From Desulfobulbaceae bacterium (GTDB lineage Bacteria > Desulfobacterota > Desulfobulbia > Desulfobulbales > Desulfocapsaceae), in contig JAITSS010000072.1 in NCBI GenBank assembly GCA_031287565.1, positions 1 through 64,000 of the forward strand: 64,000 bases of DNA. The letters run 5' to 3'. Under the pieces are notes generated by a model that was not told where the DNA came from, did not search any database, and saw only the letters and a list, made by a program, of their open reading frames with translations. The first letter of the stretch is position 1; each line of letters starts with the position of its first letter. Below are positions 20,742 to 24,934 of this stretch, one piece after another. The translations under genes and the position numbers were made by a program.

Positions 20742-20770
20742 TTGACATTTACCCCAGATTTCATTTTATC
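20742..20770 (+). promoter_or_regulatory. Candidate sigma-70 promoter of the cobalamin-riboswitch operon
   Basis: TTGACA at 20742-20747 is a perfect -35 box. It is followed after 17 bases by TTTATC (20765-20770) as a weaker -10 box. The position immediately upstream of the riboswitch fits a leader-transcript start near 20777. No other strong promoter was seen between tag and the riboswitch. Confidence 0.6.
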
Positions 20771-20771
20771 C

Positions 20772-20942
20772 CCCGGCAGGTTTCAGGTTCCCGCAAGGGA
20801 GAAAAAGGGGGAACTCCGTGCGAATCGGAGATGGTGCCCGCCGCTGTGACCGGGGACGAACGCCGCAAAGAGGCCACTGGCTGAAAAAAGCTGGGAAGGC
20901 GCGGCGCGAGGAAGAACCGGCAAGTCAGAATACCCGCCCGTA
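20772..20942 (+). promoter_or_regulatory. Cobalamin riboswitch
   Basis: The stretch carries the ordered consensus pieces of an AdoCbl-type riboswitch: CAGGTT, then GGGGGAACTCCGTG with CGAATC, the conserved GCCCGCCGCTGTGA, the GGCCACTGG arm, GGGAAGG, and the B12-box-like AAGTCAGAATACCCGCC (20922-20938). Spacing is as in the family. It precedes a Rho-independent terminator and a four-gene operon, so the genes should be switched off when cobalamin is plentiful. Confidence 0.92.
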
Positions 20943-21003
20943 ACCGCCAGGATCGTCCCTCCGAGGAACAGAGGGCCATCCGCCAACCAGGAGCGCGGGA
21001 CAG

Positions 21004-21037
21004 CCCCGGATCGCAGTATGGATTCGGGGTTTTTTTT
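21004..21037 (+). terminator. Intrinsic terminator serving as riboswitch expression platform
   Basis: An 8-bp stem (CCCCGGAT at 21004-21011 with ATTCGGGG at 21022-21029, one G-T pair) closes a 10-base loop and is followed by eight T. Its place 60 bases after the aptamer and 28 bases before the first gene fits premature termination under ligand control. Confidence 0.85.
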
Positions 21038-21064
21038 ATTCGCAGACAATTCCTAACAAAGTAA

Positions 21065-21946
21065 ATGCCAGAAAAATATCCATGGCCAAGCAAAAATCGC
21101 CTGGTCCGTCCCGCCTGGGTTGTGGCTGTGGCCTTGCTGCTGGCCGCAACCAACGCCTGGTCGTTTGAGGAATCTTTGGTCATCCATGCGGGCAACCATG
21201 CGACATTGTCCGACGGCGCTCTTGCGGCTCGCTACCACCTGACCTTTCATGGTGAAAATCCCGCCCGCGCCTGCCGCGACATCGCGTTTTTCTGGCGGCC
21301 CGGTTCGATTTTTAAGCCGGGCGCCGCCTGGTTCGCTTTGCCCGGCCACTGCGACGCCAAAAACTGCGGCGTGGACATCCGTATCGGCGGCATCGTCTTT
21401 TTCTCGTTGCTGGCGCAGGCGCAATGTGGCGGCGTCCAATATCAGGCCCAAACCATCGACAACCTGCACGCGCGAAATGTCGGGCCGCTGGCGGACGCGA
21501 CGGCGGCCAATCAAAAGCCAGCCGCGATCCGAGCGGCGTTGGAGCTAGTCCCAGCCATGGAGCATTACTATCCGCAAACCGGCATGACCTTTCTTTTTCA
21601 TTATCAAAACAAAAATGAAAACCCGGCGGCGGGCCAGGTTGAAATCAGCAGCGACGACCAGCCAACAGCCTTAAGCGCTTTGGATGAACACGGCGATTTC
21701 CGCTCTTTTCGTTTCACCCCATCGCACGACCAGGCACTAAATCGCCAGGGTTCCGAAGCGACCGCCGAGCGCGTCGTTCAAGTACGCGAGGGGGCGAACG
21801 GCCCGGTTTCAACCTTTACCCTGAACGTCCACCGTTCGCGGCGGGCCTTTTTCCACCGCCAAGGCGGCATGGCGCTGTTTGCGGGCCTCGCGGCGCTCGG
21901 CGCGGCGCTGGTGGTTTATTACAAAAAACAGACTTGGCGACGATGA
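21065..21946 (+). CDS. Exported, membrane-anchored protein of unknown family, first gene of the riboswitch operon
   Basis: The gene is not recognised. The 293-residue product has a hydrophobic N-terminal segment (about 19-34, signal peptide or anchor) ending in NAWSFEE, a ~220-residue extracytoplasmic domain, and a C-terminal membrane helix (about 263-283) followed by KKQTWRR. Cysteines occur at ARACR, GHCDAKNC and AQCGG, and there are several histidines in the exported part, so metal or cofactor binding is conceivable but unproven. It is first in an operon of electron-transfer genes and its stop overlaps the next start (ATGA). By position it might capture or present a substrate or corrinoid outside the membrane. 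Confidence 0.7.
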   Translation: MPEKYPWPSKNRLVRPAWVVAVALLLAATNAWSFEESLVIHAGNHATLSDGALAARYHLTFHGENPARACRDIAFFWRPGSIFKPGAAWFALPGHCDAKNCGVDIRIGGIVFFSLLAQAQCGGVQYQAQTIDNLHARNVGPLADATAANQKPAAIRAALELVPAMEHYYPQTGMTFLFHYQNKNENPAAGQVEISSDDQPTALSALDEHGDFRSFRFTPSHDQALNRQGSEATAERVVQVREGANGPVSTFTLNVHRSRRAFFHRQGGMALFAGLAALGAALVVYYKKQTWRR

Positions 21947-22890
21947 TGATTTCCTCCTGCCGCCGCGCGGTTCAACACCTGGCCTTTATTCTTTTCACCT
22001 ACGGCGGCCGTTTCGGCCTTCATTTCGGCAACGCCCTACCCTGTTTTTCCTGTCCGTATGTCACCGGTTGCGGCGGCCACTGCTATCTGATGGCGCTGCA
22101 AAGTAATTGGTGGGGCCTGCAAATGCCGCTCGCGACCATGATGAGCGGTCTGGGCTTGCAGGCGCTTCTGCTGTTCGCGCTGTTCGCGCTGTTGGTCGCG
22201 CTTCTTGGCAAAAGCTGGTGCGGCTGGCTCTGCCCCTTTGGTTTGTTGCAAGATTGGCTGACCATGCTGCGCCAACGGCTGGGCGTTCCGGAGGCGCAAA
22301 TAAGTCAGGCTATGCGCGACCGATTGCGGAGCATCAAATATCTGCTGCTGGTTTATATGCTGGCCCTGCCGCCGCTCATCGCCTCCGCCGGCTTGCACAG
22401 CGATTTCAGCCTGCCCTTCTGCCAAATTTGTCCGGCCAAACCGCTGATGCCGCTGTTCACCTTTGAGACCGCGCATCTGGCCATAAACAGCGCCAACGCC
22501 ATCACCCAGACTTTTTCCATTCTCTCGGTGGCGATTGCCGCCTTGATGCTGGTCGGCATGTTTTTCAAAGAGAGATTTTTTTGCCTGTTCTGTCCGATGT
22601 TGGCGATTATCCATATCTTTCAGAAAATCATCCCGCTGCGCCTTAAAAAAAATCCCGCCCTCTGCCTGGCCTGTGGCAACTGCGCCCGCGCCTGTCCAAT
22701 GACGATCCGCCGCGTCCATGAAGACCGCGCCGACGTCCAGGATGAAGACTGTCTGCTCTGTCTGAACTGCCTCGAATCCTGCCCCAGCGATACCACGCTG
22801 CGCCTGGACCTGTTTGGGAAAACCCTGGTTTCCTCAAAGCGACGCAGGCTCATCGTGCTATGGCAAAAAACCCGGAGCGCCCGACCATGA
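21943..22890 (+). CDS. NapH/MauN-like membrane ferredoxin
   Basis: This 315-residue polytopic membrane protein has about five helices. Two CxxCP motifs (WCGWLCP and FCLFCP) are typical of the NapH/NosR/CcoG group, and a cytosolic C-terminus carries two 4Fe-4S ferredoxin motifs (CLACGNCARACP and CLLCLNCLESCP). A further CFSCP...GCGGHC cluster lies near the N-terminus. Such proteins pass quinol or membrane electrons to soluble acceptors. The start is taken as the ATG overlapping the previous stop. It is placed directly before the dehydratase-type gene and is the likely electron supplier. Confidence 0.85.
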   Translation: MMISSCRRAVQHLAFILFTYGGRFGLHFGNALPCFSCPYVTGCGGHCYLMALQSNWWGLQMPLATMMSGLGLQALLLFALFALLVALLGKSWCGWLCPFGLLQDWLTMLRQRLGVPEAQISQAMRDRLRSIKYLLLVYMLALPPLIASAGLHSDFSLPFCQICPAKPLMPLFTFETAHLAINSANAITQTFSILSVAIAALMLVGMFFKERFFCLFCPMLAIIHIFQKIIPLRLKKNPALCLACGNCARACPMTIRRVHEDRADVQDEDCLLCLNCLESCPSDTTLRLDLFGKTLVSSKRRRLIVLWQKTRSARP

Positions 22891-24170
22891 ACAGCAGCGC
22901 AACAGAGCGGACGGCCACGCCGCCGCCCGACCGCAAGCAACGCCTACGCGCGAAAATCACCCGTGAAACAGCGGCGGAATATGCCGAAGCGGCGCGTTCT
23001 CTGCGCGCTCATCCTGACTATAATGCGGTGTGGGATAATTTCCTCGCCATCATCGAACAACCGCAATCGGCGCGACAAATCGAGCGGCGAACGGCGCGGC
23101 CGGTGGTCGAGCATCTATGCAACCAGGCCCCCTTGGAAATCGCGCACGCCCTGGGACTGCAACCGCTGCGCCTGGCCTCTGGCTGCTGCGCCGCCTCGCG
23201 CCTGGCCGACGCCTCGCTGCCAGCCTTGATGTGCCCTTTGATGCGCTCGACCTTGGGAATGCGGGCGCTTTTGGCGGCTGACGACGAATCCAATGCCGCC
23301 GCGACCTTACGCATCATCCCGACCACCTGCGACTGGACGGTGAAATTTCCCGAACTGGCGGGCGAATCCGATAAAACCAGGGCGCATTTTCTTGAATTGC
23401 CGCATTTGCGCCACAGCGAACGCGGCCAGGCCCGTTTTCAGGAAGAATTGTTCATCCTGATTGAAGAGTTGGAGAAAACCGCCGCCCGTCGCCTGACACG
23501 AGCGGCGCTGCGCGCCTCAATCGATTTGTATAGGCAAGCCTGGGCGGTGTTTGCGGAGTTCATCGCCCTGCGCCGCGACGGTCGTCTGGCCGCCGTCTGG
23601 TTCATGGTCGTCTGCGCCGCTTTCATGGCCGACACGGTCGAGCATTGGCTGGCGGCGGCGGCGCCGATTCTTGCCCATTTACAAAAAGAGAGCCGCCGGG
23701 TCGTTGGCAATGCGGTCTTTGTCTTTCTCAGCGGCTCGCCACTGCTTTTTCCTAACCTTAAAATATTGCGTTTAATTGAAGAGGCGGGCTTGTACGTCCT
23801 GGCCGACGATCTCTGCGCCTCGGAGCGTCTGTGGCCCGGCGGCCTGACCATAAGCGACCCATCGTTTTCCGGCCTGATCCGCGCCTTGGCCGGACGCTAC
23901 CACCGCGCCTGTCAATGCCCAACCTTTGCCGACAACCAGCGGCGTTTCAACACGATACGAGCATCCGGCCTCCGCCCACGCGGCATCATCCATCATGTCT
24001 TAAAGGGTTGTCATCCATTTGACATCGAAAGCCTGACCATGGAACGCGAGGCGGCGAAGGCCGGCATTCCCTTCATCCGCATCGAAACCGAGTACAGCCC
24101 GGAAGACGCCAGAACCCTCCTGACCCGCTTGGAAGCCTTCGCGCATATCGACCAAGGAGCAATGAAATGA
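22887..24170 (+). CDS. 2-hydroxyacyl-CoA dehydratase / double-cubane-cluster family protein
   Basis: The 427-residue protein fits the HgdB/BcrC-type fold. Conserved-looking cysteine sites are SGCC (100-101), LMCP (116), PTTCDW (148, matching the family PTTCD), DDLC (310) and KGCHPFD (375, in the place of the family's C-D-P motif). These bind 4Fe-4S or larger clusters. Classical dehydratases use two different subunits, whereas only one is encoded here. That is the pattern of YjiM-like and double-cubane-cluster proteins, which form homodimers. The substrate is unknown. Start and stop both overlap neighbours (ATGA). An earlier in-frame ATG lies at 22860. Confidence 0.78.
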   Translation: MNSSATERTATPPPDRKQRLRAKITRETAAEYAEAARSLRAHPDYNAVWDNFLAIIEQPQSARQIERRTARPVVEHLCNQAPLEIAHALGLQPLRLASGCCAASRLADASLPALMCPLMRSTLGMRALLAADDESNAAATLRIIPTTCDWTVKFPELAGESDKTRAHFLELPHLRHSERGQARFQEELFILIEELEKTAARRLTRAALRASIDLYRQAWAVFAEFIALRRDGRLAAVWFMVVCAAFMADTVEHWLAAAAPILAHLQKESRRVVGNAVFVFLSGSPLLFPNLKILRLIEEAGLYVLADDLCASERLWPGGLTISDPSFSGLIRALAGRYHRACQCPTFADNQRRFNTIRASGLRPRGIIHHVLKGCHPFDIESLTMEREAAKAGIPFIRIETEYSPEDARTLLTRLEAFAHIDQGAMK

Positions 24171-24934
24171 TCGTAGCCGGTATCGACCTCGGCAGCACCG
24201 CAATCAAACTGGCGCTGGTGGAAGACGGCGTCCTCCTCTGGCATAAGGCCGCGCCAACCGCGCCGGGCCAGGAAAAAATCGCCAACGCCCTGCTCGCCGA
24301 AGGATTATCGGCCCTGGGTCGCGCCGGAGAAGGTGTGAAAAAAGCCGTCACCGGCTACGGCAAAAATCTGATGGGCGGAGCCGAATTCGCCATCGACGAG
24401 CTTTCAGCCAATTGCCTCGGTCTGTTCAGACAAAGCGGCGGTCAGGCGAGAAGCCTGATCAATATCGGCGGCCAGGATGTCAAAGTGATTCAGCTCACGG
24501 CACAGGGGGCGATGAGCGATTTCAGGATGAACGACAAATGCGCCGCCGGTTGCGGGCGGTTTTTCGAGGTGGCCGCCCGCATCCTCGACACGCCGGTTGA
24601 AGATTTCGGCGCGCTGGCCGCGACGGTCGCTGAACCAGCCCGCATCAACAGCACCTGCGCCGTCTTCGCCGAAAGCGAAATCGTCTCGTTGATGGCAGAA
24701 GGGGTGGTGAAGGAAAAAATCATCGGCGGCCTGCACGAATCGGTGGCCCGCCGTATCGCCGGTCTTTGCGCCGGACGCCGACTGCGCGACGATGTGTACC
24801 TCGATGGCGGCTCGGCGCGGAACTCTGGCCTACTCCGCGCCCTTGAAGATGAACTGTGCCGCGATCTGCATGTCCTTCCCCTGCCGCAGTTCACCGTCGC
24901 CTTGGGCGCGGCTCTCGCCCATCCGGAAGCATAG
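24167..24934 (+). CDS. ATP-dependent activase of the dehydratase-type protein (BadF/HgdC family)
   Basis: This 255-residue ASKHA-fold ATPase is the reductive activator that drives one electron uphill into its partner by ATP hydrolysis. It shows the phosphate loop DLGSTAIK, TGYGKN, INIGGQD and the cluster region NDKCAAGCGRF and STCAVFAESE. Cys125 and Cys164 are 39 residues apart, the spacing of the two ligands of the shared 4Fe-4S cluster in HgdC. The C-terminal DGGSARN completes the nucleotide site. It is last in the cobalamin-riboswitch operon and overlaps the previous stop by ATGA. Confidence 0.92.
   Translation: MIVAGIDLGSTAIKLALVEDGVLLWHKAAPTAPGQEKIANALLAEGLSALGRAGEGVKKAVTGYGKNLMGGAEFAIDELSANCLGLFRQSGGQARSLINIGGQDVKVIQLTAQGAMSDFRMNDKCAAGCGRFFEVAARILDTPVEDFGALAATVAEPARINSTCAVFAESEIVSLMAEGVVKEKIIGGLHESVARRIAGLCAGRRLRDDVYLDGGSARNSGLLRALEDELCRDLHVLPLPQFTVALGAALAHPEA

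Follow-up and report, generated by a model that had tools for sequence, protein, structure and literature searches.

A recurring operon under a cobalamin riboswitch combines a double-cubane-type protein and its activase with a membrane ferredoxin and may serve the reduction of imported corrinoids

We analyzed a window of 64,000 nucleotides (nt), positions 1 to 64,000 of contig JAITSS010000072.1 (assembly GCA_031287565.1) of a Desulfobulbaceae bacterium, which harbors an operon of four genes, here named P1 to P4, at positions 20742–24934 of the + strand. The leader contains a full-length cobalamin riboswitch (RF00174, 20768–20955, +), which was matched by the covariance model with 102.2 bits (E 1.9e-24; gathering threshold 31.5 bits) over model positions 1–189 of 189. 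It is followed by an intrinsic terminator at 21002–21031 (+), a stem of 11 pairs with a T run behind it (TTTTTTTTATTC tail), about 30 nt ahead of the first ATG, that of P1. A promoter scan of the leader gave no full promoter match; the hexamer TTGACA at 20742–20747 (+), which was read by eye, remains a candidate only for the -35 hexamer of the operon promoter. The genes, all on the + strand, encode an exported protein with two immunoglobulin (Ig)-like beta domains and a C-terminal membrane helix (P1, 21065–21946, 293 amino acids), a NapH-like membrane ferredoxin whose cysteines are distributed over both predicted faces of the membrane (P2, 21943–22890, 315 amino acids), an HGD-D protein of the double-cubane type (P3, 22887–24170) and the ATP-dependent activase (archerase) of P3 (P4, 24167–24934, 255 amino acids). 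The P3 frame is open from 22860; the ATGA start at 22887 agrees better with the homologues and was preferred, and with this start ATGA overlaps are present at all three gene junctions. Since the order riboswitch-P1-P2-P3-P4 recurs in other genomes, chance is excluded, and the module is real, recurring and cobalamin-controlled. The first-pass annotation of this DNA, made from the sequence alone, had claimed cobalamin control through a riboswitch with a terminator ahead of four ATGA-coupled genes. This was borne out by the covariance model, the terminator stem and the overlaps, and the co-occurrence of the four genes with the riboswitch was found in other genomes as well.

To follow the module (loci carry our own numbers, L), a genome collection was scanned for P3, and P2 was searched in sampled groups. 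Duplicates were counted once (L182 equals L083; L067, L096 and L108 equal L037, L039 and L044). The module occurs in several phyla, with hosts among Desulfobacterota, Omnitrophota and Spirochaetales, in one Victivallaceae genome and in further groups. The type found in the window is rare: it occurred in 3 of 258 genomes of its own class, in 7/291 and 1/198 genomes in the classes of L060 and L057, in 2/297 genomes in the class of L058 and in 2/285 genomes in the phylum of L056. The P2 tree places the window in a clade of 20 rows with a Shimodaira–Hasegawa-like approximate likelihood ratio test (SH-aLRT) value of 100. A cobalamin riboswitch was present at 14 of the 20 loci of this clade but at none of the 25 of the sister clade (Fisher p 2e-7), while about 0.04 per locus are expected by chance at the genome's own riboswitch density. 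A home-made nucleotide riboswitch profile missed a weak Rfam match in L181, so the statement "no riboswitch" is less sure for loci seen by that profile only. Three loci outside the clade of the window (L077, L193, L194) have a riboswitch upstream of the module, which indicates repeated gain or loss of the B12 link. That every P1-P4 operon is related to B12 was ruled out by the 25 rows of the sister clade lacking a cobalamin riboswitch. In a relative from the same taxonomic order, P3 of a B12-regulated module (L036, 9215–10564) is split into two frames, by a sequencing fault or by decay. The genome of Candidatus Adiutrix (G269) carries three module copies (L182, L183, L184). One copy has a CobN-like gene and a cobalamin riboswitch, the other two lack a riboswitch but have a TonB receptor, which hints that the copies act on different substrates.

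The genes around the module point to corrinoids. L056 and L057, which belong to the clade of the window and are additional to the 14 riboswitch loci, lie inside B12 operons; the order in L056 is CobD, CbiB, CobQ, BtuF, BtuC, BtuD, BtuR, P1, P2, P3, P4, TonB receptor, ExbB, ExbD, TonB. Two loci of Spirochaetales have the order riboswitch-TonB receptor-P1-P2-P3-P4, and L175 has riboswitch-P1-P2-P3-P4-BtuF-CobN. In L082 (Anammoxibacter) two riboswitches precede BtuF-P1-P2-P3, with BtuF, BtuC and BtuD further on. Overall, the neighbors include BtuF/BtuC/BtuD, TonB receptors, CobN-like proteins, CbiB/CobQ/CobU/CobS and, once, BtuR, and genes for isozymes or acyl-CoA pathways were not recognized as recurrent neighbors of the module. 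A TonB receptor was found in 47 of 57 P2-linked loci versus 0 of 17 loci with P3 but without P2, a contrast that is partly taxonomic, because several of the P2-less loci are from Gram-positives or archaea, which lack TonB receptors. The usual order in the sister clade is TonB receptor-P1-P2-P3-P4-DsbD-like-ExbB-ExbD-TonB. CobN-like proteins are encoded in 7 of the 16 long loci of the window's clade, in 4 of them alongside DUF2162. In L060 (2575–8217) and L179 (2533–8139), P1-P4 come after genes for DUF2162, for a small protein with several helices, for a protein of 111 residues and for a CobN-like protein, a set which we take to resemble that of the hmu heme operons.

P3 matched PF06050 (HGD-D) with 198.6 bits, and P4 matched the activase family TIGR00241 (CoA_E_activ) with 212.5 bits, over the cut-off of 125.4, and PF01869 with 154 bits. 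In profile alignments with PDB entries, C87, C125, C157, C319, C353 and C384 of P3 align with cysteines of the double-cubane cluster protein DCCP (6ENO) and of BzdN (8S02), whereas the dehydratase subunit HadB (3O3M) has no cysteines matching C87 and C319. In BzdN, six irons of the [8Fe-9S] cluster are ligated by cysteines (PMC11971306). We infer from the alignment that the six columns would be the ligands of a double-cubane cluster. All six cysteines are invariant in 65 of the 65 P2-linked P3 proteins in a set of 97 rows. A seventh cysteine, C351, two residues ahead of the predicted ligand C353, was found in 62 of the 65 P2-linked proteins versus 5 of 26 others and may mark a docking or exit route to P2. 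In the P3 tree the P2-linked proteins are gathered in a single branch (71 rows, SH-aLRT 97) that excludes DCCP, YjiM and proteins related to them; HadB, BzdN and MbdN lie outside both groups, on long branches whose order is unsure. Since P3 scored below the NCBIfam double-cubane cut-off (NF040772, 187/350 bits), we refer to it as a distinct double-cubane-type subfamily. Two other assignments were rejected. A 2-hydroxyacyl-CoA dehydratase (HadBC, HgdAB), which has two different HGD-D subunits with cluster sites of three cysteines, was ruled out by the single HGD-D gene, the six cysteines and the tree. A class I benzoyl-CoA reductase was ruled out, because P3 missed the NCBIfam cut-offs of BzdN and MbdN (49.9/421 and 35/454 bits) and stood apart from both proteins in the tree.

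Family profiles identified P2 as a NapH/MauN-like protein with Fer4_5 and two ferredoxin motifs, which scored below the cut-offs of the NapH families themselves (TIGR02163, 67/213 bits; NF007013, 61/234 bits). Among ten clade members, the loops 30–68 and 151–186 contain on average only 0.3 and 1.8 Lys plus Arg residues, while 8.4 and 18.6 are present in residues 90–132 and in the C-terminal part. By the positive-inside rule, the two loops are therefore predicted to be periplasmic. This places the invariant cysteines C93, C97, C214 and C217 together with the eight ferredoxin cysteines on the inner side and C34, C37, C43, C47, C160 and C163 on the outer side. The paired cytoplasmic Cys-Pro motifs and the eight ferredoxin cysteines align with E. 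coli NapH; the inner set is common to E. coli NapH and YccM, whereas the outer set is missing from both. C37, C47, C160 and C163 are also kept in the sister clade, while C34 and C43 mark the clade of the window (motif PCFxCPxVxxCxGxCYL), with L176 lacking C43 and the motif not found in L183 and L184. With this cysteine pattern, P2 resembles a wire running across the membrane.

P1 starts with a signal peptide and ends with a hydrophobic helix. It had no match in Pfam, NCBIfam or PDB sequence searches. The AlphaFold model (mean predicted local distance difference test (pLDDT) 80.7) consists of two beta domains and the C-terminal helix. Foldseek retrieved only generic Ig-type folds with low template modeling (TM) scores for this model, so that no function can be assigned to P1 from its fold. 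P1 of the sister clade was modeled with the same plan (pLDDT 71), and the C-terminal halves of both P1 types were joined by profile comparison (Prob 94.7, E 6e-8). The gathering score of DUF4198 (PF10670) was not reached, with no match for P1 of the window and 21/34 bits for P1 of the sister clade. In Sulfurovum mangrovi a P1 domain of the sister-clade type follows a CcoG/FixG-like polyferredoxin in one fusion protein, whose gene lies immediately upstream of P2-P3-P4. The first-pass annotation had described an ATP-driven low-potential electron path made up of a first protein of no known family, a NapH-like membrane ferredoxin with two [4Fe-4S] clusters, a single HgdB-type protein, likened to double-cubane proteins, and its activase. 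These assignments were supported, and a position of P3 among the dehydratases, which would have spoken against that description, was not found in the tree. Beyond it, the module proved to belong to a wider family linked to TonB, of which it forms one branch, and P2 to carry extra periplasmic cysteines.

Parts of the module have counterparts in known systems. DCCP with its activase (6ENO, 7YYL) and E. coli YjiM/YjiL also consist of a single HGD-D protein with a dedicated activase and six cluster cysteines, whereas P3 forms a separate clade, has the additional C351 and is linked to P1, P2 and TonB receptors. NapH, NosR and RdhC (PceC) share with P2 the four-helix module with paired Cys-Pro motifs, and NapH and NosR also share its two [4Fe-4S] ferredoxin motifs; P2 differs in having no flavin mononucleotide (FMN) domain and in carrying the periplasmic cysteines missing from E. 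coli NapH. CcoG, to which E. coli YccM is related, is likewise a membrane ferredoxin with Cys-Pro motifs and a periplasmic Ig-like part. It is a Cu(II) reductase with an unknown electron donor and an Ig-like domain of unknown function (PMC7558416). In the window the Ig part is a separate chain, joined into one chain only in the Sulfurovum relative, P2 has extra periplasmic cysteines, and a putative electron donor is encoded alongside. Because of the Sulfurovum fusion and the Ig-like domain of CcoG itself, P1 and P2 resemble a split CcoG, to which P3 and P4 might serve as electron donor.

The first-pass annotation had offered two readings, a reductive activation or uptake path for corrinoids and a B12-independent substitute switched on when B12 is scarce. 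The former is favored, because the module adjoins genes for BtuF/BtuC/BtuD, TonB receptors, CobN-like proteins, CbiB/CobQ/CobU/CobS and BtuR, and a role in corrinoid uptake or processing is well supported. In its specific form, for which we see about even chances, the operon, switched on under cobalamin scarcity, would encode an ATP-driven reductase that extends across the inner membrane and acts on TonB-imported corrinoids. ATP hydrolysis by P4 would drive electrons into the double cubane of P3. ATP-driven electron transfer of this kind is known from DCCP and its relatives, and the proposed steps up to P3 rest on this knowledge and on the conserved cysteines. P3 would then pass electrons of very low potential to the cytoplasmic ferredoxin domain of P2, which would conduct them across the membrane to a cysteine-bound center on the periplasmic side, where P1 may dock or position the substrate. 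The transfer from P3 to P2, the outward direction and the cooperation of P1 and P2 are suggested by the architecture; riboswitches and neighboring genes suggest that the substrate is a corrinoid delivered by the TonB receptor. Reduction of its cobalt in the periplasm may strip an upper ligand such as cyanide, favor base-off forms or make the corrinoid ready for import by BtuF/BtuCD or for adenosylation. A precedent for the loss of the upper ligand is the reductive decyanation of vitamin B12 by BtuM (PMC6072759). Like the proposed module, BtuM couples corrinoid uptake to a reductive change at the cobalt, but it relies on one cysteine and has no energy-driven electron chain.

Several observations weigh against this model. 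Reduction of corrinoids in the periplasm would need milder potentials than a double cubane provides. The outer cysteines of P2 may form disulfides rather than bind a cluster, and the Cys-Pro motifs of NosR probably hold no iron (PMC5928378). The alignment of P1 homologs revealed no conserved residues of the type that ligate redox centers. The riboswitch is absent from the modules of the sister clade, and within the clade of the window no riboswitch was seen in the stretch read for L179, L180, L183 and L184.

Other explanations start from the same genes. P3 and P4 could act in the cytoplasm, where reduction of cob(II)alamin to the cob(I) form would either prepare it for adenosylation by BtuR/CobA or reactivate corrinoid enzymes, with P2 and P1 feeding electrons from the membrane or tethering the complex to the transporter. 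Reduction of cob(II)alamin demands a very low potential, and BtuR is encoded directly upstream of P1 in L056. ATP-dependent activators of corrinoid proteins are known (Ram/RACE, PMC10418091). We nevertheless consider this explanation rather unlikely, since the BtuR adjacency is confined to one locus and neither the export of P1 nor the periplasmic cysteines in P2 nor the constant link to TonB receptors is explained. The CobN-like genes in 7 of the 16 long clade loci leave room for HmuS-like chemistry, in which the module, as partner of a CobN-like protein of the HmuS type, would supply electrons for the reductive handling of an imported tetrapyrrole, be it removal of a ligand or metal, or the handling of heme as well as corrinoid. 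HmuS strips iron from heme, which needs reduction of the heme iron by an unknown electron route (PMC12583661), and hmu-like operons under cobalamin riboswitches were reported (PMC10100974). The HmuS operon also serves TonB-linked tetrapyrrole acquisition, but P1-P4 were not described with HmuS, and a CobN-like gene is lacking in the operon of the window and in L056, L057, L058, L059 and L177. Cobalt is, moreover, hard to remove from corrins, and we regard a partnership of this kind as improbable.

Electrons might also flow inward, from the quinone pool or the periplasm through P2, acting as the ferredoxin for P4 and P3, to the double cubane of P3, which would reduce some small molecule. According to a citation in PMC5928378, NapH was proposed to oxidize quinol, and in vitro DCCP can reduce acetylene, azide and hydrazine (PMC11971306). 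Quinol is a poor donor for low-potential reactions, however, and P1, the TonB receptors and the B12 genes would have no place in such a path, for which we see little probability. The B12-independent substitute, a reductase or dehydratase replacing a B12-dependent enzyme under cobalamin scarcity, has a precedent in nrdDG, which is controlled by B12 elements in delta-proteobacteria (PMC545781). It was nonetheless disfavored and appears highly improbable, as the module adjoins B12 uptake and synthesis genes instead of isozymes, P3 falls into a double-cubane clade and not with the dehydratases, and the exported and membrane parts remain without a role.

Returning to the ATP-driven transmembrane reductase, the presence of TonB receptors, often with ExbBD-TonB, in sister clades suggests that such a machine also acts on other metal complexes. 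As a tentative generalization, which we rate somewhat below even chances, ATP hydrolysis in the cytoplasm would drive electrons of very low potential through a membrane wire into the periplasm to reduce metal complexes imported by TonB systems, with one branch specialized for corrinoids. Double-cubane proteins perform ATP-driven chemistry in vitro, and their cellular role was described as unclear (PMC11971306). If the generalization is true, an entire branch of these proteins would have its physiological role in nutrient uptake. The module ties this separate branch to a cobalamin signal and to nutrient uptake and thereby makes the question of its role testable by genetics. If the reductase model is true, it would imply that low-potential electrons are exported to the periplasm at the expense of ATP and that the B12 acquisition of anaerobes includes an energized reduction step. 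Probably no known B12 uptake system has been described as powering reduction in this way, and no description of this gene combination was found in the literature searched, which left most subscription journals outside its coverage.

The genome (2.7 Mb, 83 contigs) contains seven cobalamin riboswitches including that of the window, and five of the six others have recognizable downstream genes, some named by our own reading of the proteins. Among the targets are a CbiK/CbiL/BtuCDF/CbiA-type run and, once each, a TonB receptor, an ExbB/ExbD/TonB-like run and a BtuF-like protein. The recognizable targets are those of corrinoid uptake or synthesis, and none is an isozyme swap. On contig C34, a strong cobalamin riboswitch (L030, 5763–5946, 115.7 bits) has no clear gene directly downstream. 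In the fifth case with recognizable genes, on contig C45 (L034, 4099–7743), the riboswitch is followed by genes for a TrpD-type phosphoribosyltransferase and an alcohol dehydrogenase-CobT fusion (ADH_N plus DBI_PRT), which may form a lower-ligand pathway for cobamides. Contig C44 (L052, 9089–11065) encodes a second HGD-D protein, which is accompanied by its own activase but not by P1 or P2.

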